Shown: one piece after another, positions 18,768 to 63,634 of the stretch
Numbering within the stretch: position 1 is the first letter of the stretch
How the letters are laid out: each line of letters starts with the position of its first letter
From: Onchidella celtica
Taxonomy: Eukaryota; Mollusca; Gastropoda; Systellommatophora; Onchidiidae
Direction: 5' to 3'
Length of the DNA: 64,000 bases
Assembly: GCA_963931925.1 (NCBI GenBank)
Contig: OZ007582.1
Coordinates: 26,576,224 to 26,640,223, forward strand
Position numbers and translations under genes: made by a program
The notes under the pieces: generated by a model
What the model saw: only the letters and a program-made list of their open reading frames with translations
Told to the model about the DNA's origin: nothing
The model's database searches: none

Positions 18768-18776
18768 ACTTTCAGA
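17677..18776. repeat. 527-bp tandem duplication upstream of the leader exon
   Basis: TTTGCATGGTTTTCATCAGAG at 17677 recurs as TTTGCATGATTTTCATCTGAG at 18204. The following several hundred bases match at a constant 527-bp offset. The first unit breaks off right after its own TTATTTTCAGACTT. Copies 2 and 3 carry this segment once. Confidence 0.85.
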
Positions 18777-18837
18777 TTGTACGATGTGACAACACTGGTT
18801 GTGTTTGTGGTTGCCCTGGGCACAGACCAAAGTGAAC
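18768..18837 (+). CDS. CpeT-like copy 1, leader exon
   Basis: Acceptor TTATTTTCAG precedes and donor GTAAGA follows. The frame starts at phase 0 and ends at phase 1. It encodes [16 protein letters not shown], a hydrophobic leader without its initiating Met. Confidence 0.7.
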
Positions 18838-21800
18838 GTAAGACGAGGCTCAAGTCAATAAATGTCAGGTCACAGGATTGTGGTTGAACAAATAACCCAG
18901 TGTCTACAAAACAATTCCCTTCACTTCCAAAATGTCTGCATCTGGGGGAATGGTCGGACTGGGAGAAAGATTTAATTGGAAAAAAAAATGTCAATGTTTT
19001 TGGCCTTGGCGATATCTATTTTCTTAATGACATCTTAATGGAATACACAATGACCTCACCCTACCAGCCGTCAGTGGTGAAATGAGGAAATTAAAAGCTC
19101 ATTAAAAGTGCGAGAAAGCTAAATGTGAATTTGAATGAATGTCCGTATTTCAATAATTATACCAATTAGAAACATTCTTGACCAGTTTAAAATGGGCGAA
19201 TTAAGAAATTAACGATTATGAACTAAAATGACGCCTGAAAACGGAGGAATGGACAAAAATATATACCACATAAACAAATCCAGACAGACTTAACAGGAAA
19301 ATCGAATAGATCTCATAACAACTCACACTTCATTTGATATCCCCAGTTCGTTCTGAGGAATTTCTCAAGTTCATGAGTGTCTTGTCCGGACGCTACAGTG
19401 GGAGTGGATTAGGATGGCGTATTCAACCCATTAACCATACTCGACATGATGTGAATATCTCCACTCACAAAATCTCGACACATGACTCAATACTGCCAAT
19501 TTATGATCTGGATCAGTGGTTCTCAAACGGGCGACAGTGCTCCCCTCCCCCCAGGAGGCCATTTTGATTTCCAGGGGAGGGGGGCGAAACAAAGAAAAGA
19601 GCACCCACTGTCTTGCTCAATAGCATACGTAGGTTGGTTTTGTGAGTGAAAAAGGTCTAGTTTTTCTAGCATTAATTAGAGAATGCAATCTGTTCTATTC
19701 TGAATAATCAACACACCCATTGCGTTTAATACGGCTTTGAAAAACGTAAACCTCTTAATTTGTGTGTAACCTGAAAATGTATCTGTTGGGTTTGAATAAG
19801 TATTTGGGGAGGAGGGAGGAGACGCGGAGGGGGCGATGATAGAAATTTGGAACGGGGGAGGGGGGGGCAATCGCCCGAGAAAGGTTGAGAACCACTGGTG
19901 TAGACCCTTTCAAGCCCAAAACCAGAACTTTACGTATGACAGGAAGAAGACATTTTGCTTTGCGACCTGCTTTATTCTTTGTCCAGTAACCAGTTGGTGA
20001 TGACCAAAAGAAATTTATAGTCCTATAAAATTGCAGCCCAGATTGAAAATGCAGCACATTTTTTTTCATTTCACAAAAGCCTCACCGTTCCCTAAAACTA
20101 ACAGAATTATATAGTAATAGATTTTTGGTACTTTTCAGAAGTAGCAAAAAAATTGGTTTATACAGCTACATACTGGTCTAGTTACGATAAATTCTGGAAT
20201 GTTTGCTGTTTAATCATTTTTTTTTCTTTGGCTTGGGAGTCTATAACCAAGCTCATTCGATAGGGCTTTGAACGTAGCTGAATATTTATCAAGAAGGATT
20301 TTTCGAATATTTGAATCTCTAAAGTCTTTGGGAACGGTGTCGGAATGACGTTAAAACGTGAATTTGACCTACTTTAGTTCACGGCCTTTTCTGTGACATA
20401 GAGGTATAATTATTGCGCGTTTCTTTTGGAAAAACCTGAAGCCTCTTAATTCCGAACTCTTTCTTCTCTGGAAAATTCTATTTCTGTTTGGTTGTCATCT
20501 TAATGTTTTTTTTCTATGGAAGACTGCAGTTTATTTCACTTTTCTTTGTGACACATGAAATACAGGGATGGGTTGGTGTCTAGACTCTATACATTGCATA
20601 GTTAGGTCTGACGATAACCTGAAGGGATGGGTTGGTGTCTAGACTCTATACATTGCAGAGTTAGGTCTGACGATAACCTGAAGGGATGGGTTAGTGTCTA
20701 GACTCTATACATTGCATAGTTAGGTCTGACGATAACCTGAAGGGATGGGTTAGTGTCTAGACTCTATACGTTGCATAGTTAGGTCTGACGATAACCTGAA
20801 GGGATGGGTTGGTGTCTAGACTCTATACATTGCATAGTTAGGTCTGACGATAACCTGAAGGGATGGGTTGGTGTCTAGACTCTATACATTGCATAGTTAG
20901 GTCTGACGATAACCTGAAGGGATGGGTTAGTGTCTAGACTCTATACATTGCATAGTTAGGTCTGACGATAACCTGAAGGGATGGGTTGGTGTCTAGACTC
21001 TATACATTGCATAGTTAGGTCTGACGATAACCTGAAGGGATGGGTTAGTGTCTAGACTCTATACATTGCATAGTTAGGTCTGACGATAACCTGAAGGGAT
21101 GGGTTGGTGTCTAGACTCTATACATTGCATAGTTAGGTCTGACGATAACCTGAAGGGATGGGTTAGTGTCTAGACTCTATACATTGCATAGTTAGGTCTG
21201 ACGATAACCTGAAGGGAGGGGAAAGGTATTTTTAGTTTTAGGAGTGAGCCATGAGCTAAGACGTTCAACCTTATCTCTTTGACATTGCTGTGTATCGGAG
21301 ATTAAGAATTCCGATATATTTATGTGAGCTCCAGCTGTTGCAGGTTTTTAGTCACGCCGACTGGACGTTTCCATTCCTGGCACAGGATAGGGAACTACCA
21401 CAAGCGAAAGAAACCCTTTTTTCGTGACTACAGGAAAGATGCGCACCGACATTTTGGATGAAATGCAATTTCACTCGACTTGATCGGCGGTAAATAATAC
21501 CCGTTCGTACATTTCGCAGCCGGGGGGCGGGGGGTGTAATAGCTTACAAACGGCTCTAAACAGTTTCAATCAACCCAGAAATATGAACAAACCATAGTAA
21601 ACAGTGCCAAAATTGGCAAAAACAAAAAGTTAAATATAGCGAGGCATCGCGTAAGGAATAATGCCCAAACGATTCAATAAAACACAAAGAAAAAGGGATC
21701 ACAGAATTCTTACTCGAACTTTGCTACATAAAACTTTTTCTTTTTGCCAATTTTTGACTTGGCTTTAAGCATTGCTGCGACCCCACAGCTTTTCTGGGGT

Positions 21801-24800
21801 TTTTGTAATACTCAACAGTAAACAGATACTCACAGAGTCTTTGGTGAAGACGGCCTCTTTCAATTCTTGTTACCGCAACGACCTAGTTTCGCGATTTGGC
21901 GGTCGAGGGATCTCCCTCCAAATGCTTACTCTCTGATGTTACATTAAACACACGTTGCACTTGCCTAGTTGCGAACAACCGATCTCAGCCACAATGGCGC
22001 AGTGCAGTCAAAATTGATGACGTATTCCTGCCTTGTGTCGCTTCTGGTAGTATCTCTATTCTGTGATTGCTGGCACGGATTGTGGAAATTTCTGGATGGT
22101 TTTCTGGCATGAAATCAACTGATATATGTTTCAGAAAAACGCCTTTCTGATAGAGAGGTCAATGGGCGGCAAAGTCCAGTCCCTCGACTTTGTATTGGTC
22201 CACGAAGCAAGTGATGGTACATTTCGTATAAGAGCAGCCAGGCTGGCATTCCCGAGCGGTCTCAAGTAATAACCATTAAATTATCAAAATTTCTTCCTTG
22301 TATTTTCTTAACAAGTGGCGAGGAATATGGAAGAATTTAGCATACTGCATTTACTTTCTATGCAGTAACACGGCCTATGTCCCGCCCCATGCCTCCTTAC
22401 TTCCCTGTCTGAGCTACGTCAGGACCAAAAGGCATAAGTTTGTTTCTTACACAATAGGACAAAATTGAACTTCCTGTATTTCTTTCTTCCTGCCTCAGGA
22501 CCTGTTCATCTTTTTATTCATCTGTTTCTGCTTAGTATGAATTTTGCCTCTCGGACATTTAGACACTCTCTCCATTGTCTATCGCTACTGAATTCCATTT
22601 TTGTTTGTCCCGTCCATCTGTTCCTCCATACCATGCCATGCCATCTGTCCATCCACCCACCCACCCATACCATCCAGTCATCCATGCCATGTCCATCCTT
22701 CCACCCACAATCCATACCACCTTCGCCGACCTGCCAAAATAACTACAACAACGGAGATACGTGTTTCATTCAGTGCAAACACCTATGACGTCGCCCAGCT
22801 CAGCAACACCCGAATTAATAGTCTGGACTTCGACACTGGTTGTCGATCCAAATTCAGGATGACGGGAGATAACCAGTATACTGGGAGTCTCATGACTTGT
22901 CCGGCTGGTGTCCTGTCGGTGAGTTCAATATTCCTCACCCCACCCCCCTCCCCCCTTTTTTTTTCTTTGTTTTTGAAAATATCTCTCTCTCCCATCCCCT
23001 ACCATTCTCTTACAAACACGCCCAAGCAACACAAAGTATACAAAACTCCTACATACTTGACAGTCAAAGTATACAACCAAAAACAAATCAAACCAGCTCC
23101 GCCAAAACCAACTATTTTGTTAGAAAACCAGTACCTAGTGAATTATTCGAACTTGTCAGTACTAACAAATCCGCGTTGTTTCTGACATTTGCCGCAGCTG
23201 TCGTGCTGTTCAGACACTACTGCACTTATGAACACGTCACTCTGGTCACGAATGAGTGGATAAAGCTTTACATTCGGATACTCATGGGCATTCGGGTCAG
23301 GGGCAGGGTCTGTTTGAACAGCTATATAGTGCTTTTCATAGAACCGGATCAGGGTTACCAGATTGGCTTTTTAAAGCCAAAATTCCAGAAATCTGGCTTT
23401 TTTTTCTTTAAATTGTCGGCATCAGAAAATTTATTTAGATTTCTGGCCTTTTTCTGGCTTTTTTTTTCTTCACAGACGAACATTATCTGCACGAAAATTA
23501 TAAACCATCCTTCTAAAACATCATCTTTCAAGGAAATTATTTTTGGTCAGTTATAATAATAATAATAATAATAGTTCGTCCATCACGTATGATGATGACC
23601 TTAACAACACCAGAGGAATAAAGACCAGAAATTGTTGAGAATTTCAACACATGGACAATAAAGAGAACTAAAGGACACAGAGGACAGAATGGAAAGACTG
23701 TTCTTTCATGACTTATGGCTTCTCATGTGACTGATAAGTCCTATTTTTGCCCTGCAGACCCTTCCGCATAAATGACAAGAGTGCTCCGTTGGTTCAGTAC
23801 CACTGGGCCTTTTCTTGCGCCGTTCTCTTTTTTTGATAGCCTGCTGGACTCTGTCAGCTTCCCATGCTTTGCTGCCTCTGGTAAGGGCCGCCCTCCAATT
23901 TGCACGATCAAGCGAGAGCTTTTCCCACTCACTCACATCAATGGCAAAGGCCTTCGGTGATTGCTTGAGAGTGTCTTTGTAACGTCTCTTTGGGGCCCCA
24001 ACATTCCTCGTTCCATTGGAGAGCTCAGAGAAGAAGATTTGCTTAGGGAGTCTGGAGTCGGGCATTCTGACAACATGTCCTGCCCAACGTAGCTGAATTT
24101 TTTTCAGGTGGCAGAAGATGCTCAATTCCTTGGCACGATTGAGGACGTCAGTGTCTGGAATTTTATCCTGCCATTTGATCCTTAGGATCTTTCTAAGGCA
24201 GGCCAGATGAAAGTGATTTAGCTTTCTGGCATGCGATTGGTACACTGTCCAGGTTTCAGCCCCATAGAGTAGGGTGGGAAGGACCACAGCATTGTACACT
24301 TTCAGCTTAGTGTCTGTGCGAATGCCGGCAACATCCCATACTCTCTTTCGAAGCCTGCCAAATGCAGAGCTGGCTTTGCTGATTCTTGAGAGAATTTCAG
24401 TATCAACACGAGCCGCGGAAGACAGTGTACTGCCAAGATAGGTGAAGTTCTCCGACACCTTCAGAAGACTGTCATGGACTTTGATATTTGGGGTCACAGG
24501 ATACTTATCGTCTGGAGTAGGCTGATGGAGCACTTCCGTCTTCTTTGTGCTTATTGTGAGGCCAAAGTTGTCACAGGCACTAGAGAACTTATCAACACAG
24601 TTTTGCATGCTATCCTCATCGTGTGCCAGAAGTGCACAATCATCAGCAAATAGTAGGTCACAGACTTGAGTACTTTTGGTTTTGGTTTTTGCCTGAAGTC
24701 TCCTGAGGTTGAATAGACTGCCATCAGTTCGGTACTTGATGCTTACCCCTTGAGGAGGAGAGCTAAAGGCTTCTTGTAGCATTGCAGAGAACATGATGCT

Positions 24801-27800: not shown

Positions 27801-30800
27801 AGACTGTGTTGGAAAATCACTTGCATTCACAAAGACATACACACACACAAACACACACAGAGAAACATACTGCACGCACACAATTAGAAATGGCAGGGTA
27901 AAAAACGCAAGCGATCGATCATCAAAGATTTTCTACGGGAAAGAAAACGAAACGTTAAATAAATTGTAGTTGTTTTGTGTTGTTTTTTTTTCTTTCTAAA
28001 ACTGTGTACGTAAACGGAAACGGGAACTAAAATGATATGCGGAAACGACGTGCGGAAATAAAATGTTGTGTTTCCATGTGTACGGAAACGGAAGCGGCCA
28101 AAATAAAAGAAAATATCACTTTTGTTTCTCTAGTCATGAGATTCGTTCTTTGCAGCCTGCTATTTTATCTATTTCTACCACCAGAGCCGAATGCAATTTC
28201 TTGCTTTGGGAGGAGTTGATTTTAATACAACTCCTCCATCACAGATGTATTAAAAGGCAACCAAAAACGTCGTCGAGAGTGCCAGTGCCACCACTATTGT
28301 TTCTCCATTCTTTCTTCCATCTCTCCACTGAAATTGACATGTTGCAGCGTAAAAATGTGTGAGAAATTGAGGAAGATTACTGAAATCAATGCTAAATGAT
28401 TGCTCCCACCTCTTGTTCCATCAGATAGTCAGCGCCCAAAGAAGCAGACGAATATTGTACTTAAAGCCAAACAGAAAGCTTTATAGGCGATCTTTTTTTG
28501 CCATCCAGCATTCGAAGGAGTAATGTTTCCTAATTTGGTACATACATTCTGTTGTGAGTTTTTCATCTAATCGATGGTTCTGACAGTGCGTGGGAGTAAT
28601 GTTCTTCTTTTTTTTTGTGCTGGTAATAATGTGAGCAATGTGCGTGTGTGAGGTATGCGTTAGGGAGCTGTATGTCTTTGATATTGTATTCAGTGTAGTT
28701 CTACTACTTTTGAGGTGACTACAAATTTCCTACCAACAGGGTAATATCTTATCTTAAATTGTTTGTCACAAGAATTACAATGGTTAACAACGCAACAGAT
28801 GTTAACCATTTCATTACAGACATCCTCTTTTTTTCCATTTTTTAAACGAACCTGTCTTTGCCTGGTAGTGATGTAAATGCAAATAATTCTGATTTCTAAT
28901 CTGTATTGGAAAATCTCAGCACCCTGAGGTTTTTTTTTTTTTTTTTAATGCACAATCCTCAAAAATTCCACACTTAATAAAGCAATCATGTTATAATACA
29001 GATATGTACATGTTTATTATATATATAATGTATACATGTATTTCCATATTCTCAACTCAGGAATGCTGGAATAGAGATCTAAAGGGTAAACTTGCTCTAA
29101 AAACCGTCTAAGAGAAAGCGAATGGGAGAGTGTCAGCGAATAAAAATTGTACATAAGAGCGGGAAAGCATGGGGATTTGTGCAGTTTTCAATTATGATAA
29201 TGATTTTGTTTTAAGAGGATGAAGTCGGAAAAAGCAAATTAAATCGTTGGATTTTACAAAACTCAAATTCAATTGTAGATCAGGTTTGTTATACAACAGT
29301 CAAATAGTATGTAGATCTAGTCCATACAAAATGCTACCGAGTTTTAGAAGAGCAAGGCCTTGTCATGTCTTATCATGGACAGTCACCATTTTAATGGCAG
29401 CTCGTACGGGGGGGAGGGTGGGGGGTGTTTGAAGTCAACATTATAAAGGTGTACATGGTCGTGGAGTGGGTGGGTGGGGGAGAGTAAAAAATGGATAAAA
29501 TCAATCCTACATAGACCTACTTTTAACCAAATATAAATACATACAGGTTTGATGTTAAAACAACCGTCTGTGAGGTGACCCACTGGTGATGATTACTACA
29601 TACATTTAAGCTATCAGTTTTGCTGGTAATCATTGTGTTCATGCAGCAGTTTCTTTACAGCTTTACGAAACAGGCAACATATTAGTACAAACCTGAAATC
29701 AAATAAATGAAGTGAATAATGAAGCAGAAAACTCAACAGTCATATAATTTGTCCCCATTGCCTTTGCTATACTTTCAAAAATATATTAAATTTGTGTAAA
29801 TGGGAGTCCTTGTGACCTGGCCGCCTCACGTCAAAAAGTGTTTTGTTTTGTTTAACAAGCTCAATGGGCTTCTCCATATCACTGTTTGATATGTGCCAGT
29901 CTTGGCATCTTTGCAATACGAAGGTTTCCGCCACACTGGTTGACCCAGAGAGCCAATCTTCACTTCATATCAAAAATGCGCGGGGGAAAAAAGGCGGGAA
30001 ATACGTAAGTTCCGGCCTGCGGCTGTGCGGCAAGGGCTAAAAATCGCTACACATGAGAACACCCTCTCTGTTTTACTACTTGATGGATTTTGACATTTTC
30101 GTTTCCGTTTTCGTTTCCGTACGCATGAGAACATGATTTATTGCGAGATTTCTGTATTGTTTCTTTGCAATGAGGGGCTCTGCTATACATGGCCTTTTTT
30201 CTTTCTTTCACATTTTAAGTTTCCCTCCCTTCCATGTGTATCACAGGGACCCATAACCCACTACAAGACTGAGGTGAACTGTGACGGAAAACGGGAAATA
30301 GCTTCACGGAATGGTCAACCTACACCTACACCATTCACATCAAACGAAGAGCGGTAAAACATCCCTTTTGAAAACTGTTCAGCTAACGGGGTTTTTTTTT
30401 GCACAAACTGGAGAGACAGTACATGTATAGTTTTTGAAACTGTCATTTAGACAAGTTCAACTGTTACTGTCTAGTGTCAGAAAAAAGAAAAGTAATTGCT
30501 TTAAACAAAGACAGTCAGTCGTGCGTTCTTATTGGGTCCTTCCAGAAAAAAACAACAAAAAAACGTCTTTCTCTGACTCAGACAACCAAACATATTATAA
30601 GAGAATGATTCTGTATGTATCTGCCGATCAAAATAATCAGTTGACGATGTCTAGTTTGCAATCAACTGTTTAATTAAATGCTATTACAGCCACGAATAAA
30701 ATCTTTCTTTCCCGTATTTTGTTTTCACTGAACTTTCCGAAGGGTCAGCAACAGTGGCAACAAAAAAAAAAGTCGCGAAAGAATTTGATTGCAAACTATT

Positions 30801-31659
30801 ACATTCCACTTCTGAACGAGGTGTTTGGTAGATGCTCGAGTGCTGAATGGAAGACATATTTATTCAATTTCTTTTCTGGCGTCTTTGCGAATTTCATTCT
30901 TCCAGTTTTTCGGATACAAAAAGACGTTTCAGGTTTATGTTTTATCAAAATCAAGTTAAATGTCCATTTCCCTTGCCGAATGTGTGGAGATGTCCTGAAC
31001 TATCTACACTCTAGATCAGGGTTATCCGATGACCGGCCCACGGGCACACAATCCAGCCCACCAAAATGGAACCAAATACTTTTATTTGACCTGGCCAATT
31101 CAACAAGCCTCCCTTGTTTTCTGAATAACTGGTGAAACCTTTTTTTTTTTTTTTTAGAAGTATTTAAGATGATACCATCCACCAAATTCATGCTGTCGTA
31201 TAACCTTTAAACACCTACAGCTTAGATTAAGCTTTGTATCTCTGGCCTTCCTTAAAAAAAAAACAACAACAAAAAAAGGAAAAACCTGCTCTAGATGGTC
31301 ACTCCATGGCCACTCCCCACCAGCAGGCTGGACCTCCCCTCCCCCCCCCCCCCAACTAAGTTCATGCATCCATGAGGTTCACCAAATTGTTGACCTCATT
31401 AATTTAGAATGTTGTTACAAGTACGTACGTCCTCCAGTTGTTTTTTTTTTGCTCCAGCGGTGCGTATTTTAAAACCTTCTGTGACTCCAGAGCTAGCGAG
31501 CTTCTCCCGAAATCCTCTCAAAATAGTCCAAACAACATCCTTTATGCAAAAGGCTTGGGGTCCATATGTACTTATAACAACAGCCTTACTTTATGTTTCA
31601 GCTACCCCCTGCAGAGCTACGTGTTGGATGACGTTCCATCCTTCTCAAATCCATGCTGA
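18768..31659 (+). CDS. Secreted CpcT/CpeT-like protein, tandem copy 1 (six exons, start exon not found)
   Basis: Exons: 18768-18837, 19347-19450, 22135-22265, 22774-22918, 30247-30353, 31602-31659. All introns are GT..AG and phases run 1,0,2,0,2, leaving 204 open codons before TGA. The first exon gives a hydrophobic leader ([11 protein letters not shown]), read as a signal peptide. The rest follows the CpcT/CpeT order: an [11 protein letters not shown] helix (about 29-39), RIQPI, NAFLIERS (60-67), SLDF..DGTFRI strands, GC (124-125), Y137-x-G139, C144, then [10 protein letters not shown] (155-164). Cyanobacterial members attach or chaperone bilins. The animal function is unknown. C125, C144, C162 and the C-terminal C204 are shared with copy 2, fitting an extracellular fold. 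The ATG must lie upstream, since a stop precedes the leader frame. Family assignment rests on motif order, without a search. Confidence 0.72.
19347..19450 (+). CDS. CpeT-like copy 1, exon 2
   Basis: Acceptor ATATCCCCAG, donor GTGAAT. Phase 1 in, phase 0 out. It encodes the first helix and RIQPINHTRHD. Lengths in copies 1, 2 and 3 are 104, 119 and 107 bp, all differing by multiples of three. Confidence 0.75.
19514..19897. mobile_element. hAT-type MITE in intron 2 (copy 1)
   Basis: Ends CAGTGGTTCTCAA and TTGAGAACCACTG form a perfect 13-bp inverted repeat typical of hAT elements. The flanks ATCTGGAT and GTGTAGAC are degenerate 8-bp sites of the NTCTAGAN type. Orthologous insertions sit at 43843-44255 and 60349-60740, so it predates the locus duplication. 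Confidence 0.75.
20565..21213. repeat. 59-bp minisatellite, 11 units (copy 1 only)
   Basis: Units of exactly 59 bp start at 20565, 20624, 20683 and so on to 21155, differing mainly at GGTTGGTG/GGTTAGTG. Copies 2 and 3 have a single counterpart (near 44784 and 61872), so the array expanded in copy 1 after duplication. It lies in intron 2. Confidence 0.95.
22135..22265 (+). CDS. CpeT-like copy 1, exon 3
   Basis: Acceptor TGTTTCAG, donor GTAATA. 131 bp, phase 0 to phase 2. It encodes KNAFLIERS and two predicted beta strands. The length is identical in all three copies. Confidence 0.8.
22615..22720. repeat. CCAT-rich intronic repeat (copy 1)
   Basis: Irregular CCAT/CCACC repeats lie just upstream of exon 4. 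Counterparts at 46262-46400 and 63318-63430 differ in length. They produce short His/Pro/Ser-rich ORFs that are not genes. Confidence 0.7.
22774..22918 (+). CDS. CpeT-like copy 1, exon 4 (core motif)
   Basis: Acceptor TTTCATTCAG, donor GTGAGT. 145 bp, phase 2 to phase 0. It holds the most diagnostic segment: LDFDTGC, then FRMTGDNQYTG, then CP. This spacing of GC, Y-x-G and Cys matches CpcT/CpeT proteins. Confidence 0.8.
23350..23553. mobile_element. Left part of a hAT-like element, interrupted by a LINE (copy 1)
   Basis: It starts CAGGGTTACCAGATTG, the same end as the complete 765-bp element at 47038-47802 in copy 2. The LINE inserted within it. To the right of the LINE, from 27498, matching sequence resumes for only a short distance, so its right end is deleted here. 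Confidence 0.65.
23554..27494 (-). mobile_element. Full-length non-LTR retrotransposon (LINE), about 3.9 kb
   Basis: Copies 2 and 3 run uninterrupted through this site (near 47247 and 63973: TCAGTTACATA..), which fixes both edges to within a few bases. The 3' end on the minus strand is a short (TTA/TAT)n tail at 23554-23574. The 5' UTR is about 560 bp (26934-27494). The flanking duplication is at most GTTA. The single ORF is intact, suggesting a young insertion. Confidence 0.85.
23706..26933 (-). CDS. LINE polyprotein: APE endonuclease, reverse transcriptase and C-terminal C2H2 finger
   Basis: 1075 codons, uninterrupted. The N-terminal third is an apurinic-type endonuclease: WN (21-22), SETRLP (55-60), SAYAPT (129-134), GDFNAR (166-171), TDHRL (261-265). 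It would nick target DNA for target-primed reverse transcription. The RT includes KSPGVDSIPAEVY, GISLLSIAGK, a GFRKERGT segment, DLTKAFDTV, NGVKQGCVLAP and the catalytic FADD at 762-765. The C-terminus ends in a CX2CX12HX3H finger near residues 1050-1072. No RNase H or ORF1 is visible. Similar proteins are often annotated as craniofacial development protein 2-like. The clade (RTE/CR1-like) is not resolved. The start is the first ATG. Confidence 0.93.
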   Translation of the reverse strand: MGIPFCGRNKKKFSLLRLGAWNIRTLQDNSNNPERRTALIAIELSRYNLDIVALSETRLPDSGQLKELSGGYTFFWKGKGAVEPRQHGVGFAIKNDLVRNLQSMPIEINDRLMTLRIPVGKSQSATLISAYAPTTTNPDEAKDKFYSDLESVICSVPAADKLILLGDFNARVGSEISAWPNVLGPHGVGSCNNNGLRLLTLCAEFGLFITNTNFSLPVRNRTSWMHPRSKHWHLIDYVIVRKTDRKDVLVTKAMCGAECGTDHRLIVCKLRLTLRRNRRPQGKAPPKRLNVSKLCSAEKQSELSSELSSKLDCVTFDPENIEQSWTDLNTTVHSCASSTVGFPVRKHQDWFNDNDNEIKVLIKEKNSLIQAHCSDPSSTAKADALRACKGVLQKKLRKMKNDWLEERVRETQKYADTNNTRKFFESLRAVFGPSRSGTTPLLASDGSTRIVELNAIIQRWAEHFGGVLNRPSNINTESIDRLPQTPINAALAKPFTANETRTATNQMSFNKSPGVDSIPAEVYAFGGEKLIERLTELFNHMLKAGKLPQDFKDASIIHLYKNKGDSQVCDNHRGISLLSIAGKILARMLLNRLLDHLSSNDLLPESQCGFRKERGTADMIFAARQIQEKCMEQNKALYITFVDLTKAFDTVCREGLWKILAKFGCPPEFITIVRQFHDGMQAAVKSNGSVSEPFAVTNGVKQGCVLAPTLFSIMFSAMLQEAFSSPPQGVSIKYRTDGSLFNLRRLQAKTKTKSTQVCDLLFADDCALLAHDEDSMQNCVDKFSSACDNFGLTISTKKTEVLHQPTPDDKYPVTPNIKVHDSLLKVSENFTYLGSTLSSAARVDTEILSRISKASSAFGRLRKRVWDVAGIRTDTKLKVYNAVVLPTLLYGAETWTVYQSHARKLNHFHLACLRKILRIKWQDKIPDTDVLNRAKELSIFCHLKKIQLRWAGHVVRMPDSRLPKQIFFSELSNGTRNVGAPKRRYKDTLKQSPKAFAIDVSEWEKLSLDRANWRAALTRGSKAWEADRVQQAIKKRERRKKRPSGTEPTEHSCHLCGRVCRAKIGLISHMRSHKS
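28003..30135. mobile_element. Copy 1-specific insertion, possible TIR transposon
   Basis: Copy 2 is contiguous across this point (near 48440). The left end has TGTGTACGTAAACGGAAACGG, repeated near 28076 as TGTGTACGGAAACGG. The right end reads, inverted, GCGTACGGAAACGAAAACGG. Such related inverted ends suggest a non-autonomous DNA transposon, but no clean target duplication was found and the edges are approximate. No ORF with a domain is seen. G-runs occur near 29409-29480. Confidence 0.4.
30247..30353 (+). CDS. CpeT-like copy 1, exon 5
   Basis: Acceptor GTATCACAG, donor GTAAAA. 107 bp, phase 0 to phase 2, encoding [19 protein letters not shown] and a variable tail. The same length and splice sites occur at 48567-48673 in copy 2. 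Confidence 0.75.
30932..31342. repeat. Left arm of a 411-bp inverted duplication
   Basis: The arm is the near-perfect reverse complement of 32652-33063, with a 1.3-kb spacer that contains exon 6. Copy 2 has this sequence once, in the orientation of the left arm, so the right arm is the derived one. The arm contains a hAT MITE. Confidence 0.9.
31017..31288. mobile_element. hAT-type MITE with CTCTAGAT duplication (copy 1)
   Basis: Ends CAGGGTTATCC and GGAAAAACCTG form imperfect inverted termini. CTCTAGAT flanks both sides (31009-31016 and 31289-31296), an 8-bp hAT duplication. The counterpart in copy 2 is at 49260-49528 with the same flanks. Confidence 0.85.
31602..31659 (+). CDS. CpeT-like copy 1, terminal exon
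   Basis: Acceptor TTATGTTTCAG. Phase 2 in. It encodes [18 protein letters not shown] followed by TGA. The copy 2 counterpart has the same length, stop and final Cys. Confidence 0.75.
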
Positions 31660-46100: not shown

Positions 46101-49100
46101 ACAAAATTGGACTTCATGTATTTCCTTCTTTCTGTCTCAGGACCTGTTCATCTTTTCACTCATCTGTTTCTGCTTAGTATGAATTTTGCCCCTTTGATTT
46201 CAGACATTTAGACACCCTTTCCATTGTCTACCGCTACTGAATTCCATTTTTGTTTGTCCCGTCCATCTGTTCTTCCATACCATGCCATGCCATCTGTCCA
46301 TCCATCCAACCATGCCATCCATCCGTTCATCCATCCATCCACCCATCCATGCCATCCTGTCATCCGTGCCATATCCATCCTGCTACCCACCCCCAACAAT
46401 CCATACCATCTTCGCCGACCTGCCAAAATAACTACAACAACAGAGATATGTGTTTCATTCAGGGCAAACACCTATGACGTCGCTCAGCTCAGGAACACCC
46501 GAATTAAGAGTCTGCGCTTCCAAACTGGTTGTCAATTCAAATTCAAGAGGACGGGACTTGTCCAGTATACTGGCCATATCTTGAGATGTCCGCCTGGCAC
46601 CCTCTCGGTGAGCTCAATATCCCCCCCCCCCCCAACCACCGCTTTTTTCCTTTGTTTTCGAAAATCTTCCCCCGCCCCCTTCCTCTCTACCATTCTTTTA
46701 CTGACACGGCCAAGCAACACTAAGTATACAAAACTCTTGCATACTTGACAGCCAAAGTATACACCCAAAAACAACTCAAACCAGCTCCGCCAAAACTAAC
46801 TATTTTGCTAGAAAACCTGTACCTAGTGAATTATTCGAACTTGACAGTACGAACAAATCCGTGTTGTTTCTGACATTTACAGCAACTGTCGCGCTATTCA
46901 GACACTACTGCACTTATGAACACCTCACACTGGTCACCAATGAGTGGATAAAGCTTTACATTCGGACACTCATGGGCATTCGGGTGAGGGCCAGGGTCTG
47001 TTTGAACAGCTATATAGTGCTTTTCATAGACCCGGATCAGGGTTACCAGATTGGCTTTTTAAAGCCAAAATTCCAGAAATCTGCCGTTGTTTTTTTTTTA
47101 GATGGTCGACATGAGAAAATTTATTTAGATTTCTAGCTTTTTTCTGGGGTTTTTTTTTTTCTTCTTTACAAACGAACATTATCTGCAAGAAAATTACAAA
47201 CATCATTCTAAAACATTAACTTCCGAGGAAAATTTTTTTGTCAGTTACATAATTGCACATGTGCCAGAATTTCTGCCACTAATTATCAGGGAAGGTCCAA
47301 CCGGCAAGATTGGTGTCCCTTTGACCGTGGTGGATTTTTTTTTTAACTGCTACGGATTTTTGAAAGCCTGCCACGTATCCACACTGTGGTTTTTGATTGA
47401 TGTACTTGGCAATGAAGCATTCAAAGAGCTGGCCACCTATCGCCTAATAATTTTCTCTCATGTGCCCTCCGTTAAAACTAAGACCAGAAACAGAATACAG
47501 CTGAAATCTTCTTGATGCTATTGTGAGAATCGGGAAAGAACTAGATCTAGTGTTTTCAAAGAAATATTTCAGACTTTCACGTTATCTCCAGACAAGCTTT
47601 GAAGAAAAAAAAATCACATCTGACAAAGTTTTTTTTTCAAAAAGTTCCACTCACTCTAGACGGGAGGATGGTAGTGACATGTTCTGGAGCTTTTCGCGTG
47701 ATGCTAGTAAGAAAAGTATCCTGAAATTTGCTAGGCTTTTTTCTGGCAATTTGTTTCTGGTATTGTTTGGCTTAAACTGTAAATTTCAATCTGGTAACCC
47801 TGGCCCGGGCTGGGTTGAAGTGGTGAACCAGATGCACGGGTCGTTTACCCATTGCAATGGAAATCTTCTGCACTTGCCAGATAAGATCTGTTTTTTACTG
47901 GGTTTTTTTCCTTAGGAAACAAACATTCATCACACAGTGCCTCAGAGTTGCATACAGATCTGATATTCTATGTCACACTGTAGAACACAAATCCTCCGGG
48001 ATTCAGATGTATTATATACGAATGATTGACTCTGGTGGTCCAAATAATATTTTTGTACTTTTTTTTTTTGGTTGGTATTTGTGTGTGTTTCTGTCTGTGT
48101 CCGTGTGTGTGTGTGTGTTTTGTACTTCTTTACTCCCATTTGGGAAAATTGCCTTAATGTCACTGCAGCCTAGTCGTAGCTGGAGCAAACACGTCGTCGC
48201 CTCAGTGCAGCGCCAGTTGGCAAGTATTTAGTCAGACTGCGTGGGAAAATCACTTGCATTCACAAGACACACATACACACACACACACACACAAACGCAC
48301 ACACACAAACATAATGGGCTCACACAATTAGAAATGACTCGGGGGGAGAAGACGCAAGCTATCGGTCATCAAAGATTTTCTACGGGGAAGAAAACGAAAC
48401 GTTCAATTGTACCTGTTATGTGTTTTTTTTTCTTTCTAACTCTTTTCTGATTTATTGCGAGATTTCTGTATTGTTTGTTTCCAATGCGGGGCTCTACTAG
48501 TACTATACACGACCTTTTTTCTTTCTTTCACATTTTAAGTTTCCCTCCCTTCCATGTGTATCTCAGGGACCCATAAATCACTACAAGACTGAGGTGAACT
48601 GTGACGGAAAACAAGACACAGTTTCACGGAATGGTCATCCTGCACTTGCACTATTCACACTGAACGAACATCGGTAAAACATCCATTTTGAAAACTTTTC
48701 AGCTGACCAGCAGGTGTGTTCTGCTGGGGTTTTTTGCACAAACTGGAGAGACAGTACATGTATAGTTTTTGAAACTGTCATTAAGGACAAGTTCAACTGT
48801 TACTGTCTAGAGTAGGAAAAAAGAAAAGTAATTCTTTTAAGCAAAGTCGTTCGTCCTTATTGGATCATTCCAGAAAAACAAAAATCTTCTTTCTGTGACT
48901 CAGACAACCAAATATTTAAGATAATGATTCTGTATGTATTTGCCGATCAAAATAATCGGTTGACAATGCCCATTTTGGAATCAACTGTTTAATTAAATGC
49001 TATTACAGGTGCGAAAGAATTTCATTGCAAACTATTACATACCAGTTCTGAACAAGATGTTTGGTACATGCTCGAGTGCTGAATGGAAGACATATTTATT

Positions 49101-49905
49101 CAATTTCATTTCTGACATCTTCTCTACTTAAGCATTTCATTCTTCCAGTTTTTCGGATACAAAAAGACGTTTCGGGTTTATTTTTTATCAGAATCAAGTT
49201 AAGTGGCCAGTTCCCTTGCCGAATGTGTGGAGTTGTCCTGAACAATCTACACTCTAGATCAGGGCTGTCCATTGGTCGGCCCGTGGGCACACAATCCAGC
49301 CCACCAAAATGGAACCAAATACTTTTATCTGACCCGGCCAGTTCAGCAAGCCCCCCCTTGTTTTCTGAATGACTGGTAAAACTTTTTTAAAGATGTATTT
49401 AAGACTATAACAGTCCACCATACCCATGCTGTCGTATAACCTTTAAACACCTACATCTAAGTTATCCGGGATAAGTTGAAGCTTTGTATCTCCGGCCCTC
49501 CTTTAAAAAAAAAAAATGGACAAGCCTGCTCTAGATGGTCACTGCATGGCTAGTCCCCGCCAGCAGGCTGGACCCCCCCCCCCCACCCCCAAATTAAGTT
49601 CATGCATTCATGAGTTTCACCAAATTGTTGGCCTCATTACTTTAGAATGTTGTTACAAGTACGTAAGTCCTCCATTTTTTTTTTTTACTTTTTTTTTGCG
49701 CTAGGGGTGCGTATTTTAAAGCCTTCTGTGACTCCATAGCTAGAGAGCTTCTCCCGAAGTCTTCTCAAAATACTCCAAACAATAGCCTTAATGAAAAGGC
49801 TTGGGGTGCATACGTACTTATAACAGCAGCCTTACTTTGTGTTTCAGTTACCCCCTGCCGGGCTACATTTTGGCTGACGTTCCATCCTTCTCAAATCCAT
49901 GCTGA
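43127..49905 (+). CDS. Secreted CpcT/CpeT-like protein, tandem copy 2 (leader exon frameshifted)
   Basis: Exons: 43127-43195, 43661-43779, 45747-45877, 46463-46607, 48567-48673, 49848-49905. Exons 2-6 are open, with GT..AG sites and the same phases as copy 1, ending in FSNPC and TGA. Core motifs are kept: [36 protein letters not shown]. The leader exon is 69 rather than 70 bp because one A is missing after ACTTTCAG. If it is spliced to the same upstream exon as copies 1 and 3, the leader would be out of frame. Either this copy is a pseudogene or it uses another start. Exon 2 has five extra codons. No stops occur in exons 2-6, arguing for recent or ongoing constraint. Confidence 0.65.
43661..43779 (+). 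CDS. CpeT-like copy 2, exon 2
   Basis: Acceptor ACATCCCCAG, donor GTGAAT. 119 bp. It encodes [20 protein letters not shown] followed by RIQPIHH, with a Ser/Gly-rich insertion of five codons relative to copy 1. Confidence 0.7.
43843..44255. mobile_element. hAT-type MITE in intron 2 (copy 2)
   Basis: Ortholog of 19514-19897 with the CAGTGGTTCTCAA and TTGAGAACCACT ends. It contains longer G-runs. Confidence 0.7.
45747..45877 (+). CDS. CpeT-like copy 2, exon 3
   Basis: Acceptor GATATGTTTCAG, donor GTAATA. 131 bp, phase 0 to 2, encoding VNAFLLERS and the following strands without stops. Confidence 0.8.
46463..46607 (+). CDS. CpeT-like copy 2, exon 4 (core motif)
   Basis: Acceptor TTTCATTCAG, donor GTGAGC. 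145 bp. It encodes [18 protein letters not shown] and RCPPG at the same spacing as copy 1. Confidence 0.8.
47038..47802. mobile_element. hAT-like DNA element, 765 bp (intron 4, copy 2)
   Basis: CAGGGTTACCAGATTG at the left and CAATCTGGTAACCCTG at the right form a perfect 16-bp terminal inverted repeat. Flanks ACCCGGAT and GCCCGGGC share CCCGG, a degenerate 8-bp duplication. No transposase domain is evident. Partial copies start at 23350 and about 63779. Confidence 0.75.
48567..48673 (+). CDS. CpeT-like copy 2, exon 5
   Basis: Acceptor GTATCTCAG, donor GTAAAA. 107 bp, open, encoding [16 protein letters not shown] and a variable tail. Confidence 0.75.
49260..49528. mobile_element. hAT-type MITE with CTCTAGAT duplication (copy 2)
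   Basis: Ends CAGGGCTGTCC and AAGCCTG, flanked by CTCTAGAT at 49252-49259 and 49529-49536. Ortholog of 31017-31288. Confidence 0.8.
49848..49905 (+). CDS. CpeT-like copy 2, terminal exon
   Basis: Acceptor GTGTTTCAG. It encodes [18 protein letters not shown] and TGA. The final ten codons match copy 1 apart from a single D to A change. Confidence 0.75.
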
Positions 49906-56926: not shown

Positions 56927-59577
56927 GTCACCCAAGTTTTTTTTGAGCTAGTAGTAGTATTGAAAAACCTTTTTGTGACTCCAGAGCTAGAGAGCTCCTC
57001 CCGAAATACCCCTAACAATAGCTTTAACTAATTATTCTTTCAGGTTTTCTTTTGTTTTCCTCCCGTTTTTTTGTTTTGTTTTGTTTTTGTAATTGAAAGG
57101 GTAAGTGGCAGGGTTAGGAATTCGACAAGATTTAGGTTGAGGATCAGGACGGGGTTAGGGATGTGTACGTATACGTTCGCACCCCTAGCGCAAGACACTC
57201 AGGGTGGGTACACACAAATAACAACCGCCAATATATATTATTGACACAATATGTAAATAATGGAGATTACAAGGTGGTAAAACCATCAATAATTCTGGCG
57301 AGACTGTTTTACTAGACAAACTGGTTTCATGAAAGGGTTTAGTTGAGAGAAATAGTAATCGTAAACTGCAGAGTGACATGTTAGAACCCCAAACTGATTC
57401 CTGCAGAATGCCCCCCCCACCAAAAACAAAAAAAACCACCTCTGATCCAGTCCCCACCATCAGGCTCACCGAGACTATTCTTTGACTCGGTCAGTTCAAT
57501 AAAACCTCGCAGTTTTTCTGAGCAAATAAAACTTTTTTTTTTTTTAGATTTTAAAAAATTCTAATCCCACCAAATTCACTCGAGAAATAGATCTACGCTT
57601 TCTATACTTATTATCACAGGTCAGGCTATCGATCCAGAGGTTATTATCCTATCCTTCCCCTATAATATTTCAAAGTCTAATGTTGAGTGGCCTGCCAAGA
57701 GACTAAAATGTGTTTCTAGTGCCCTCGTCCAAAATGGCTAGAAACCTCGTGCAACCGTGATCTAGAACAAATCAGATTGATTAGCACCTCTACCTGGACC
57801 ACCAATCTACTCATGGTCAGATGGGTTTAAATAGTCCGCAAACACTGAATTTCCACACCTGGAAGCTATTTCGCCTGGAACTTTCATGACCAACGATTAC
57901 TCAAAGTGCGTCCCAAAATTTGTGGTGTGACTTGAACTCCAATTTTCTGCACAATGACTTGACTAAAATGTCCCAGATTTACACAACTACTTTTGTCCGT
58001 TTGTCTTAACACATTATTTGTCAGACAGAGCGGTTATTTCTTAAAATAAAGAACATTCCTGAATAATGTTATGTTAATACTAGTAGGTACTGGGTGCTGC
58101 CCGGGGTAAACGTATTATCTATTTATTTACTTATCGGTTGAGGTACACGCCTTTGCCCGGGATAAATTTGTTCGTGACTAAACGTTTAGTTCTGGGTGAT
58201 TATAATGGATCTGCTTCACCTTGCCTGTTCCTTTAGGTCTCTTTTCTTGTTATTGTTTGTTTTTTTCATATCTTGCGTGTTTATGCCCTACTCGTCAGAA
58301 CAGTTTTGGAAGAGAGAACGTCCTGTGTTCGTGGAAGAGAAAGGATCGTGAGGCGGAATTAGTGACAAAAAGCAAACTCAAATCAGTTCTTCCCCACCGT
58401 TTCTAGTCCCCAATAAAAAAAATGATTTTAAAAAAATCGGTAGATCACAAGGAAGGCAGCTCCAAAATTTCACGCAAACCCAAGCTGTGTGAGGCGCTGT
58501 CGGCCTCATTAAAAATAGTGCGGTTTTTTTTTTTTATATAGATTGTAAAGTTCGGCTATTGGCGTACACGCTGCTTTCACATAACACGCCAGAGTGTGCC
58601 ATTTTAGCATTTTTGTCTGCTTATAATGTACTAGGAAACACATGGCATTGAAAAGGCACGAATAAAATGCAAAGTGTTATTGTAATCATCGAGTGTTGAG
58701 CAAAGGAGAGAAATTAGACAATGAAGAGACAAACATCAAGTATAAACTACTCATCATTCACTGTCAAAAACCTTGTCTGAGCTTTTTCTTAAGCAAAATT
58801 TTAAAGTTGATAATTCAAAGTGGCCATCGAAGACAACATGTAATTACGACAGCGATAAAACAATTTTATTACGAACAAGGAAATAAATAGTATTTCTGTT
58901 ACCTCTAGTGTCTGGCACTTTTCTACCCAAATTTGTTAATGCGTGTGTTTGTAGGAAGGGGGTGGGGGGCAGATAAACACAAAACGCAAAATAGGGAGGG
59001 TGCAGGTGCAGGTGCAGGTGCAGGTGCAAAAAGAAAGCCCACGTAGAAGGAAGGGGAAGGGGCGGAGTGTAGTCCCTCCCGCAAGGATTTGTTGAAAGTT
59101 TGCATGATTTCCATCAGAGTTGTGACTGATGACGTATTGTTTGATTAGTCTAATCAAAGATACTACATACAATATTATAAGACACTCCTTTCTTCGCCCA
59201 TCTAAAAAAACTCGTCACACAGTTTGCGCGCTGATGGGGGACAGGGCCCATGGCGCATTGCATGAAAAGAATGATTGATATAATGGTAAATTAATGATGC
59301 CTATTTGGTACAGTGCCACTACAAGAAAAAAAAATTAATGGATTTTCTGCAGCGATTGAAGTTATAATTACAAAATAAGTGACTTCAATCAAGGTCTACA
59401 GAGATAACTAGACAGTGAACAAAATTCAATATTTCCCCTGTTTTGGCATTGTAAAATACGGCATTGTTCATGACTTCCACGCATTCGCCACTAGGTGGCG
59501 CGAAATCTGTGCATGCTAAAAGCGCTACTTGTCCTATTGTATCTAGAATCTTTAGTGTAACTTTGCCTTATTTTCAG
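56927..59577 (+). other. 5' flank or first intron of copy 3
   Basis: Collinear with 40387-43126. It contains a Helitron-related 3' end at 58080 and four or more GGTGCA hexamers near 59002-59025 (two in copies 1 and 2). No supported exon. Confidence 0.5.
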
Positions 59578-59647
59578 ACTTTCAGATTGTACGATGTGAC
59601 AACACTGGTTGTGTTTGTGGTTGCCCTGGGCACAGTCCAAAGTGGAT
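59578..59647 (+). CDS. CpeT-like copy 3, leader exon
   Basis: Acceptor TTATTTTCAG, donor GTAAGA. 70 bp as in copy 1, encoding a hydrophobic leader ending GTVQSG. Confidence 0.7.
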
Positions 59648-62600
59648 GTAAGACGAGGCTTCAGTCAATAAATGTCAGGTCACAGGGTCATGGTCGAACA
59701 AATAACCCAGAGTCTACAAAATAATTCCCTTCACTTCCAAAATGTCTGCATCTGGGGGAATATAACGTCATGGTCGGACTGGGGGAAAGACTTAATTGAA
59801 AAAAAAAATGTCCATGTTTATGGCTTTGGCGATATCTATTTTCTTACTGCTCAAATGGAGTACACGGTGACCTAACTTTATTATCTATCAGTGGTGAAAT
59901 TAGGAAATAACAAGTGCATTAAAACGTACGAGAGACCTGAAACTGAATTTGAATCAATGTCCGTATTTCGATATACCACTTAGAAACATTCTTGACCAGT
60001 TTAAAATGGGCGAATTAAGAAATTAATGAATATGATCAAAAATGACCCCTGAAAGAACTTCAGGAAAACGGAGGAATGGACAAAAATATGTACCACATAA
60101 AAAACAAATCTAGAGAGACTTAACAGGAAAATCGAATAGATCTCATAAACAACTCACACTTCATTTGATATCCCCAGCTCGTTCTGAGGATCTTCTCAAG
60201 TTCATGCGTGTCTTGTCTGGACGATACGGCAATGGGAGTACCCATGGGTTCCGTTTTCAACCCATTCACCATGATGATCATGAAGTAAATAATGTTCACT
60301 CACAGAATCTAGACGAATGACTCAATATTGCCAGTTTATGATCTAAATCAGTGCTTCTCAATGTGGGCGGGGGCGATTTGGACTTGGGGTTGCGGGGTGG
60401 GGGGGGGGGGGCGCTCGGAAACAAAGAAAAGGGGCGAAAACGGTGAAGAGGAGCACCCACTGTCTGGTTCAGATCAACAGCACACATAAGCGGGCTTTGT
60501 GAATAGAAAAGGCCTAGTTTTTTTTGTGCAATTATTAATAGAGAATACAATCTGTTCTGTTCTGAATAATCAACACACCTATTGGCATTCATAAGCGTTT
60601 GAAAAAAGTAAACCTCTTAATTTGTGTGTAACCTGAAAATTTATCTGTTGGGTTTGAATAAGTATTTGGGAAGGAGGGAGGAGATGGGGAGGGGGCCATG
60701 ACAGAATATTTGTTCGCCCGAAAAAGGTTGAGAACCACTGGTCTAGACCATTTTTAAGCCAGAACCAGAACTTTACGTATGACATGAAGAAGACATTTCG
60801 CTTTGTCTCTTGCTTTATTCTTGCCCAGTATCCAGTTGGTGATGACCAAAAGAAACTAAAATTGGTATAAAACTGCCACCCCGATTGAAAATGCAGCACA
60901 TTTTTTTCATTCCACAAAAACTTCATCGTTCCCTAAAACTAACATTTATAGTAATAGGCGTAATAGGTTTAGGGTACTTTTCAGATGTAGAAAAAAATTG
61001 TTTTATTTTAGCACAACTGGCCTAGTTACGATGAATTCTGGAATGTTTGCTGTTTAATCATTTCTTGGCTAAGGAATGCCAAGATCATTCGACAGGGCTT
61101 CGAACGTAGCTGAATACTTATCAAGAAGGATTTTTCGAATATTTGAATCTCTACACTCTTTGGGAACGGTGTCGGAATGACGTTAAAACGTGAATTTGAC
61201 CTACATTAGTTCATGGCCTTTTCTGTAACATAGAGGTACAATTATTGCGCGTTTCTTTTGGAAAAACCTGAGGCCTCTTAATTCCGAACTCTTTCTTCTC
61301 TGGTAAACTCTTTCTTCTCTGGGACAAGGTGGTCTAGAGGCAAGGTGCTCGCCTCCCATGCCAAGGGTCCCGGGTTCTAAACCCGGGCAGTGCAGGCATG
61401 TTGGAAAGTGGATTTTTCTCATATTTTCAAGTCCCTGGTCCTATTGGGGGGTAGGATCGAGTAGTTCTTGGAAATTAGATTTTTCTCATATTTTCAAGTC
61501 CCTGGTCCTATTGGGGGGTAGGATCGAGTACCTAGTCTTCTCGGATAAGGACGAAAAAATTCGGAGGGCCCGTGTGCACGTTGCGCACGTTAAAGATACC
61601 TTGGCAGTTGGAAATCGTAAAGAGCAGGCCGAAAGGCCGCTGCCCGGGCAAAATTGAAATTAATAGATTAAAAATTTATCCATATCATCTCCCCCCCCCA
61701 CCCCCCCCCCCCCCCGCCAGAACAAGAAATAATAAAACAAGTAAAGTGAGGTGTAAATGCCAAGGGCAGCGAACCTCCTAAAATAAAGACCTCAAATCAA
61801 ATCTTTGGTAAATTCAATTTCTGTTCGATTGTCATTTTTGTTATTTTTATTATGTGACACATAAAATACAGGGATGGGTTAGTGTCTAGACTCTATACAT
61901 TGTATGGTTAGGTCTGAAGATAACCTGAAGGGATGGGAAAGGTATTTTTAGTTTTAGGAGTGAGCCATGAGCTAAGACGTTCAACCTTATCTCTTTGACA
62001 TTGCTGTGTATCGGAGATTAAGAATTCCGATATATTTATGTAAACTCAAGCTGTTGCAGGTTTTTAGTCACACCGACTGGACGTTTCCATTCCTGGCACA
62101 GGATAGGGAACTACCACAAGCGAAAGAGACCCATTTTTCGTGACTACAGGAAAGATGCGCACCGACATTTTGGATGAAATGCAATTTCACTCGACTTGAT
62201 CGGCGGTAAATAATACCCGTTCGTACATTTTCCCGAGGAGTAACAGCTTACAAACGGCTCTAAATAGTTTCAATCAACCCAAAAATATGAACACACCTAC
62301 GGTAAACAGTGTCAAAAATTGGCAAAAACAAAAAGTTATATGTAGCAAGGCATCGCGTAAGAAATAATGCCCAAACGATTCAATAAACACAAAGAAAAAG
62401 GGATGACAGAATTCTTACTCGAACTTTGCTACATAAAACTTTTTCTTTTTTGCCAATTTTTGACTTGGCTTTAAGCATTGCTGCGACCCCACAGCTTTTC
62501 TGGTGTTTTTGTAATACTCAACAGTAAACAGATACTCACAGTGTCTTTGGTGAAGACGGCCTCTTTCAATTCTTGTTACCGCAACGACCTAGTTTCGCGA

Positions 62601-63634
62601 TTTTGCGGTCGAGGGATCTCCCTCCAAATGCTTACTCTCTGATGTTACATTAAACACACGTTGCACGTCAAAATTGATGACGTATTCCTGCCTTGTGTCG
62701 CTTCTGGTAGTATCTCTATTCTGTGATCCCTGGTAGAGATTGTAGAAATTTCTGGATGGTCTTCTGGCAAGGAATCAACTGATATGTGTTTCAGAAAAAC
62801 GCCTTTCTGATAGAGAGATCAAGGAACGGCTCAGTCGTGTCCCTCATGTTTGCATTGGTCAGCGAAGCAGATGACGGTAAATTTGAAATAGAATCAGCCA
62901 TTCTGACATTCCCGAGTGATCTCAGGTAATAACCATTAAATCATTAAAAAGTTCTTCGTAAATTTTCTTAACGAGTGGCGAGGAACATGGAAGAATTTAA
63001 CATACTGCATTTGCCTCCGAGCTCCACCCTAATCCACACTTGAATGTGGAGATTCTACTCAGTAACACGGCCCATGACCCACTCTGTGCCTCCTTACTTT
63101 CCGGCCTGAGGTGCGTCAAGGCCAGTAGGCATCAGTTTGTTTCTTACACAATATGACAAAATTGAACTTCCTGTATTTCTTTCTTTCTGTCTCAGGACCT
63201 GTTCATCTTTTCATTCATCTGTTTCTGCTTAGTATGAATTTTGCCCCATTGATCTCAGTCACTTAGACACCATCTCCATTGTCTATCGCTACTGAACGCC
63301 ATTTGTGTTTGACCCGTCCATCTATTCTTCCATACCATGCCATGCCATCTGTCCATCCATTCATCCATACATCCACCCATCCATACCATCCAGTCATCCA
63401 TGCCATGTCCATCTTTCCACCCACAATCCATACCACCTTCCCCGGCCTGCCAAAATAACTACAACAGAGATACGTGTTTCATTCAGTCCTAACACCTATG
63501 ACGTCAATGGGCTCAGCAACACCCAAATTGATGATCTGGACTTCGACAGTGGTTGTCATGCCAGATACGAGACGGCGGAAGGTGCTCCCGGGTATACTGG
63601 CTCTTTCTTGAGCTGTCCACCTGGCACCCTCCCG
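59578..63634 (+). CDS. Secreted CpcT/CpeT-like protein, tandem copy 3 (exons 1-4, truncated by window)
   Basis: Exons: 59578-59647, 60178-60284, 62795-62925, 63487-63634. Phases are 1, 0 and 2 as in copy 1, and all four are open. Leader [16 protein letters not shown]; then LLKFMRVLSGRYGNGS, NAFLIERS, DLDFDSGC, PGYTG and SCPPG. It differs most from the others in exon 4, with one extra codon (148 bp) just before the Y-x-G motif. The exon 4 donor is GTCAGC where copies 1 and 2 have GTGAGT/GTGAGC, a weaker splice signal. Terminal exons are outside the window, so intactness cannot be judged. Confidence 0.7.
60178..60284 (+). CDS. CpeT-like copy 3, exon 2
   Basis: Acceptor ATATCCCCAG, donor GTAAAT. 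107 bp. The loop after SGRY reads GNGSTHG and the end reads HHDDHE. Confidence 0.7.
60349..60740. mobile_element. hAT-type MITE in intron 2 (copy 3)
   Basis: Ortholog of 19514-19897. Ends CAGTGCTTCTCAA and TTGAGAACCACTG. Flanks ATCTAAAT and GTCTAGAC. Confidence 0.7.
61305..61806 (+). repeat. tRNA-derived composite SINE insertion (copy 3)
   Basis: Copy 1 is uninterrupted here (near 20473). The head from about 61321 has TGGTCTAGAGGCAAGGTGC (A-box-like) and GGGTTCTAAACCCG (B-box-like). An internal segment of about 65 bp, with CCTGGTCCTATTGGGGGG, is duplicated in tandem. The body ends in GCCCGGGCAAAATTG and a C-run, the start of the composite tail seen at 33940-34370. It is not a tRNA gene. Confidence 0.75.
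62795..62925 (+). CDS. CpeT-like copy 3, exon 3
   Basis: Acceptor TGTTTCAG, donor GTAATA. 131 bp, encoding KNAFLIERS, then SLMFALV and FEIES strands, without stops. Confidence 0.8.
63487..63634 (+). CDS. CpeT-like copy 3, exon 4 (core motif)
   Basis: Acceptor TTTCATTCAG, donor GTCAGC. 148 bp, encoding LDFDSGC, a divergent loop, PGYTG and SCPPG. Confidence 0.75.

Follow-up and report, generated by a model that had tools for sequence, protein, structure and literature searches.

Candidate distant relatives of CpcT/CpeT bilin lyases in a tandem, rapidly diverging gene family of the gastropod Onchidella celtica

Proteins of the CpcT/CpeT family handle bilin pigments in the cyanobacterial world. 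According to excerpts of the published record, T-type lyases form lipocalin-like barrels (PMC10254012), CpeT assists bilin attachment as a scaffold (PMC10452541), and DUF1001 relatives occur in land plants and the phage S-PM2 as well as in cyanobacteria, a red alga and a cryptophyte (PMC2408579). No link between CpcT/CpeT and any animal gene was found in the literature searched, which comprised titles and the beginnings of abstracts, with most subscription papers outside its scope. Here, a tandem gene family is described from a stretch of 64,000 nucleotides of Onchidella celtica (contig OZ007582.1, positions 26,576,224 to 26,640,223 of the forward strand), hereafter called the window, in which position 1 is the first letter. 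The data lean, though not far, towards a secreted family that would be a distant relative of the CpcT/CpeT (T-type bilin lyase) superfamily, would stand closest to the short CpeT of cyanophages and may serve as a diversifying binding scaffold.

The CpeT proteins of cyanophages (S-RSM4, ACG-2014j and the viral contig L111) resemble the window copies in their short form and in a collinear series of GTF/GRY, E, GC, YxG/FxG, C and Y..EV. They differ in that the phage genes are single uninterrupted frames with PYR and DRG..WG, whereas the window protein is spliced, begins with a leader that resembles a signal peptide, carries two additional cysteines and has a different C-terminus. The T-type phycocyanobilin lyase CpcT, in its Nostoc/Anabaena form (PDB 4o4o; PF06206), likewise has GC, [FY]xG and C in this order, with LxxL ahead of GC, but its Pfam model is silent on the window proteins, in which PYR and DRG..WG are lacking. 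A CpeT-like frame also occurs in a record labelled Aeromonas caviae (L167), 33% identical to a heterotroph-type sequence, which suggests that the CpeT family reaches non-photosynthetic bacteria.

Conotoxins are, unlike the window proteins, short cysteine-rich peptides. Their genes share with the window genes a conserved leader and introns, a diversified mature part and the presence of several copies, as described in excerpts of PMC3862624, and this likeness is one of evolutionary pattern and gives no indication of a venom role. The perivitellin PV1 egg proteins of apple snails, in the available portions of PMC13336756, are also a secreted family that has grown by duplication and in which one clade is positively selected; PV1 is likened here by description and not by sequence, and the terms CpeT and lipocalin are absent from the main text of that paper.

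Predicted genes and their three tandem copies

As predicted from the DNA alone, the gene is spliced and present in three tandem copies. The sequence-only reading had described one set of exons that recurs three times in order, with matching splice sites and phases and with length differences in threes in exons 2-4, and each of these features was recovered. Specifically, exons 1-4 are present in all three copies, on the forward strand like all exons given here: in copy 1 at 18768..18837, 19347..19450, 22135..22265 and 22774..22918, in copy 2 at 43135..43195, 43661..43779, 45747..45877 and 46463..46607, and in copy 3 at 59578..59647, 60178..60284, 62795..62925 and 63487..63634. The span of 18768 to 63634 thus runs from the first base of copy 1 exon 1 to the last base of copy 3 exon 4. 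In copy 1, exon 3 contains FLIERS and exon 4 the series GC..YTG..C; both are hypervariable, and exon 4 gives the best CpeT match.

The introns between exons 1-4 are bounded by GT..AG, and the phases after exons 1-4 are 1, 0, 2 and 0 in the three copies. The whole segment is repeated, introns included, so the matching splice sites are partly just inherited. The lengths of exons 2, 3 and 4 (copies 1/2/3) are 104/119/107, 131/131/131 and 145/145/148, which differ, as net values, by multiples of three. The exon gaps placed by the aligner measure 15 between copies 1 and 2, 3, 6, 6 and 3 between copies 1 and 3, and 4, 12, 4, 1 and 2 between copies 2 and 3, where they net 12 and 3, so that placement in that last pair is ambiguous. 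In introns 1 and 3, the fractions of indels divisible by three are 5/15, 5/16 and 4/16. The joined frames of exons 1-4 are open over 147-152 codons in the three copies, and it is these open frames, together with the net length differences in threes, that speak for a coding gene.

An exon carrying the ATG (exon 0), chosen as the best among the aligned ATG frames listed, lies upstream in all three copies, at 17832..17867, 42794..42829 and 59250..59285. In copy 1 it opens with the start codon, reads MAHSMKRMLDIM and ends at the donor ATG-gtaaat in phase 0; the ATG, the frame and the donor are conserved in the three copies. The N-terminus resembles a signal peptide, with a hydrophobic core in copy 1 exon 1, and the proteins are probably secreted, as judged by eye from the sequence. 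Downstream, alignment of copies 1 and 2 located exons 5 and 6 (30247..30353, with HYKTEVNC, and 31602..31659 in copy 1; 48567..48673 and 49848..49905 in copy 2), whose phases fit and which end in a common TGA stop after SFSNPC. The complete seven-exon models encode 216 residues in copy 1 and 218 in copy 2, each with four cysteines. The model of copy 3 comprises 164 residues up to the end of the window, exon 4 being the last exon inside it and the later exons lying beyond.

Probable distant relation to CpcT/CpeT proteins

Comparisons of profiles make it probable that the family is distantly homologous to CpcT/CpeT, without the lyase motifs. For these comparisons, 163 CpeT loci were collected and reduced to 75, to which a CpcT and four proteins from a plasmid collection were added, giving a set of 80. 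A hidden Markov model (HMM) built from the three copies scored these 80 proteins at a median of 3.85 bits and at best 19.9 bits. The best match is the CpeT of viral contig L111 (P 3.3e-8), which is collinear with the profile over 133 positions (9-141 of 182). In total, 48/80 CpeT proteins reach P<0.01 in this reverse direction, with the qualification that these proteins are mutually related and not independent. The highest scores among controls were 2.6 bits for decoy open reading frames (ORFs), from which those of the window were excluded, 1.9 bits for reversed CpeT and 6.0 bits for shuffled CpeT; HMMER scored 122/225 decoys, 65/80 reversed and 550/800 shuffled sequences, and the counts omit the unscored ones.

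In the forward direction, an HMM of the 80 CpeT proteins gave 11.2, 9.0 and 4.1 bits for copies 1, 2 and 3, values that 0, 0 and 1 of 2000 shuffles each reached, with single-test P values of 1.1e-5, 5.3e-5 and 1.7e-3. Scaled arithmetically to the 24,736 models of Pfam, the best of these P values becomes about 0.27, and the forward direction taken by itself is suggestive only. When 287 window ORFs of at least 60 residues were ranked with the same model (206 were scored), the top two were the exon-4 ORFs of copies 1 and 2, at 9.5 and 7.5 bits, with the next at 2.3 bits. Additionally, in a global profile test, shuffled sequences did as well as the real ones in 0/120 cases for the whole protein, in 0/300 for exon 4 and in 2/300 for the N-terminal part, a weak signal. 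Alignment with three cyanophage-type CpeT proteins gave 20-25% identity to copy 1, and in it GC, YxG (replaced by FxG in one) and C line up; the core of GC, [FY]xG and C is present in all three copies.

Other results weigh against this relation. The test that the sequence-only reading had proposed, HMMER against the Pfam CpeT profile, returned no CpeT match at E<=10 in three hmmscan runs. As a positive control, a CpcT sequence scores 249.9 bits with this model (PF06206), whose gathering cut-off of 21 bits the window proteins do not reach. CpeT was equally absent from an NCBIfam scan of the gene products and from a PHROGs scan, CpcT was not among the matches in the PDB when searched by sequence or by the three-copy profile, and a search of viral contigs for relatives of the three copies returned none. 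In hhalign, the three copies score 29.7 against 76 CpeT proteins (60 column shuffles at most 19.6; reversed 19.3) and 27.9 against all 80 (100 shuffles at most 23.3), but at probabilities of 27% and 18%; against the Aeromonas relative alone, the score is 11.0 and the probability 0.09%. The signal lies mainly in exon 4: the C-terminal part (exons 5-6) shows no relation in the global profile test, with 78/300 shuffles as good, the exon-4 ORF of copy 3 ranks only 11th among the window ORFs (0.6 bits), and the ranks of the four ORFs in which exon 2 or exon 3 was located are 20th, 24th, 68th and 165th. Furthermore, an overlap alignment that left the ends free gave a negative result for copies 1 and 2 and for the N- and C-terminal parts. 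Shuffles did as well as the whole proteins of copies 1, 2 and 3 in 29, 31 and 0 of 100 cases; for the N-terminal part the counts were 32, 126 and 78 of 200, and for the C-terminal part 22 and 25 of 200 (copies 1 and 2). The overlap test rewards short overlaps and was replaced by the global profile test, which was chosen after the outcome of the overlap test was known. Finally, two elements invariant in four aligned CpcT/CpeT sequences are missing, namely PYR after EQ from the copies and the C-terminal DRG..WG from copies 1 and 2, the C-terminus of copy 3 lying beyond the window.

The assignment to CpcT/CpeT made from the sequence at the outset is therefore retained in part: a distant relation is indicated by profiles built both ways, and GC, YxG and C are kept, while the Pfam CpeT model stays silent and PYR and DRG..WG are absent. 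A function as bilin lyase, in which a bilin would be bound and linked to a cysteine of a phycobiliprotein, in turn finds no support, because there is no match to Pfam CpeT and both of these motifs are absent.

The same library searches returned a small number of other matches, all dismissed as chance: Pfam PlyB_C for copy 1 only (E 0.21-0.23), Pfam PATR (E 2), NCBIfam CRISPR_DxTHG for copy 3 (E 0.065), and PDB chains at E 0.08-2.2 by sequence and 0.54-1.2 by profile.

Divergence between the copies and competing explanations

Exons 3 and 4 have changed more than the non-coding DNA around them. Non-exon divergence is 8.9, 8.9 and 9.0% over 8020, 5828 and 5776 aligned sites (pairs 1-2, 1-3 and 2-3, the order used throughout), measured in windows taken only from DNA that BLAST can align, which favours a low background value. 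Differences amount to 23-25% in exon 3 and 19-26% in exon 4, values above those of every aligned non-exon window of equal length in all three pairs. Exon 5, compared between copies 1 and 2, is matched or exceeded by 2.4% of the non-exon windows, and exons 0 and 1, the signal-peptide exons, differ by 3-9%, at or below background. For the mature protein, nonsynonymous divergence (dN) is 0.227, 0.328 and 0.373 against intron divergence of 0.101, 0.093 and 0.102, giving ratios of 2.26, 3.52 and 3.66 (Fisher p 6.3e-9, 1.1e-15 and 2e-17). Over 127 shared columns, the net charge is +4, +15 and -8 in copies 1, 2 and 3, and charge is altered at 32/67 variable sites.

The excess change in exons 3-4 points to diversifying selection, and several measures temper this view. 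Of the non-exon windows, 28%, 2.7% and 4.6% are at least as divergent as exon 2, which thus stands out from the background in only two pairs, and 43% are at least as divergent as exon 6, which does not stand out. Synonymous divergence (dS) of the exons, at 0.150, 0.230 and 0.177, likewise exceeds that of the introns. Mature dN/dS is 1.51, 1.43 and 2.10 (bootstrap 0.93-2.78, 0.85-2.54 and 1.20-4.31), and Fisher tests of dN>dS give 0.094, 0.11 and 0.0072, so that a ratio above 1 is clear only for copies 2 and 3. Alternation of variable sites at lag 2, which strands would be expected to produce, did not reach significance for variability (p 0.12 in exon 3 and 0.81 in exon 4); for hydropathy it gave p 0.33 in exon 3 and 0.017 in exon 4. 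The combination of a conserved leader with a secreted portion that is hypervariable recurs in many proteins of venom, immunity and reproduction, and the suggestion of a defence protein, raised in the sequence-only reading, fits the accelerated exon change.

The available data are compatible with a model in which the family, represented here by three genes, two of them complete with seven exons each, and with about 185 mature residues, would be exported by means of its signal peptide and would fold into a small beta-barrel with up to two disulfides. Bilin attachment would not be expected, since the PYR and DRG..WG lyase motifs are absent. Instead, the barrel may act as a binding scaffold that presents a diversified surface and charge to a changing partner, be it prey, predator, microbe, parasite or mate, and conflict with this partner would supply the selection that drives the copies apart. 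A bolder version, which we regard as doubtful, holds that an animal lineage adopted a bilin-lyase fold from the cyanobacterial and cyanophage world, came to export it, braced it with disulfides and discarded its lyase motifs, and that this fold now provides tandem hypervariable recognition or weapon proteins, for instance in venom, egg defence or immunity. If the relation is true, the CpeT family, reported from cyanobacteria, phages, red algae, a cryptophyte and land plants, would gain a secreted and rapidly diversifying animal role, and a pigment-handling barrel could serve anew as a scaffold for recognition. No single reading frame reveals the gene, which also escaped the Pfam scan, so others of its kind may go unnoticed.

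Alternatively, the genes might belong to a secreted, rapidly evolving family without kinship to CpeT, the likeness being chance or a convergence of small beta-rich proteins with GC and YxG. We hold this to be somewhat unlikely: the missing CpeT match in Pfam, NCBIfam, PHROGs and the PDB, the low hhalign probability and the weak (N-terminal part, 2/300 shuffles) or nil (C-terminal part, 78/300; overlap test) support outside exon 4 all speak for it, yet the reverse profile scores exceed those of the reported decoys and 133 positions of the profile align collinearly with the best match. Because the ranking of the window ORFs depends on the fourth exon of copies 1 and 2, our confidence in a CpeT-related binding scaffold was lowered slightly and that in an unrelated family raised slightly. 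Distinctly unlikely is a family of secreted carriers of tetrapyrroles, bilins or other pigments (e.g., in eggs, mucus, ink or shell) that has kept a CpeT-like ligand pocket. Kinship with a bilin-handling family and the lipocalin-like barrels that excerpts of a review attribute to T-type lyases (PMC10254012) would agree with it, but PYR and DRG..WG are absent; a pigment-binding role of the window proteins is possible. It is highly improbable, finally, that one or more copies are decaying pseudogenes whose exon differences reflect relaxed drift. This idea draws on the loss of a single base from copy 2 exon 1, where the frame would break from the first AG (43127) and holds only via a second AG 8 nucleotides downstream (exon start 43135), and on the donor of copy 3 exon 4, which is gtcagc as opposed to gtgagt in copy 1 and gtgagc in copy 2. 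Exons 2-6, however, contain neither a stop nor a net frame change as far as seen, and divergence of exons 3-4 above the non-exon level is not expected from relaxation alone.

Repeats and retroelements of the window

The tandem copies lie in segmental repeats of about 16.4-32.4 kb, 39.0/40.3-50.8 kb and 56.9-64 kb, which are collinear on alignment and about 81-95% identical in the longer blocks, with introns included in the similarity. A fourth gene copy, sought by tblastn within the 64-kb window, was not found. Self-alignment also pairs 13.4-16.5 kb with 51.1-54.3 kb, and arrays of a 76-bp unit occupy equivalent spots in two repeat units (15107-15571 and 52956-53495).

Intron 4 of copy 1 harbours a long interspersed nuclear element (LINE) on the reverse strand (23709-26990), with an uninterrupted ORF of 1094 residues that encodes an endonuclease and a reverse transcriptase (RVT_1, E 4.6e-37); this element is missing from copy 2, as seen from the flanking blocks, which adjoin there. 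Intron 2 of copy 1 contains about 11 repeats of a 59-bp unit (20564-21221), for which the alignment of copy 3 points to one unit. A second retroelement on the reverse strand (54382-56871) has a reverse transcriptase ORF of 630 residues and a piece that weakly matches RNase H (E 5.4e-5, under the Pfam cut-off), and a retroelement ORF that encodes the zinc-binding and core domains of an integrase, also on the reverse strand (1-2061), is open at the window start. A 45-bp satellite at 10863-12126 (28 copies, 95% matches) is a source of spurious long ORFs in several frames. The GC content varies between 0.34 and 0.46 across the window in 4-kb steps, and ARAGORN calls a tRNA-Thr (tgt) on the reverse strand at 8009-8081.

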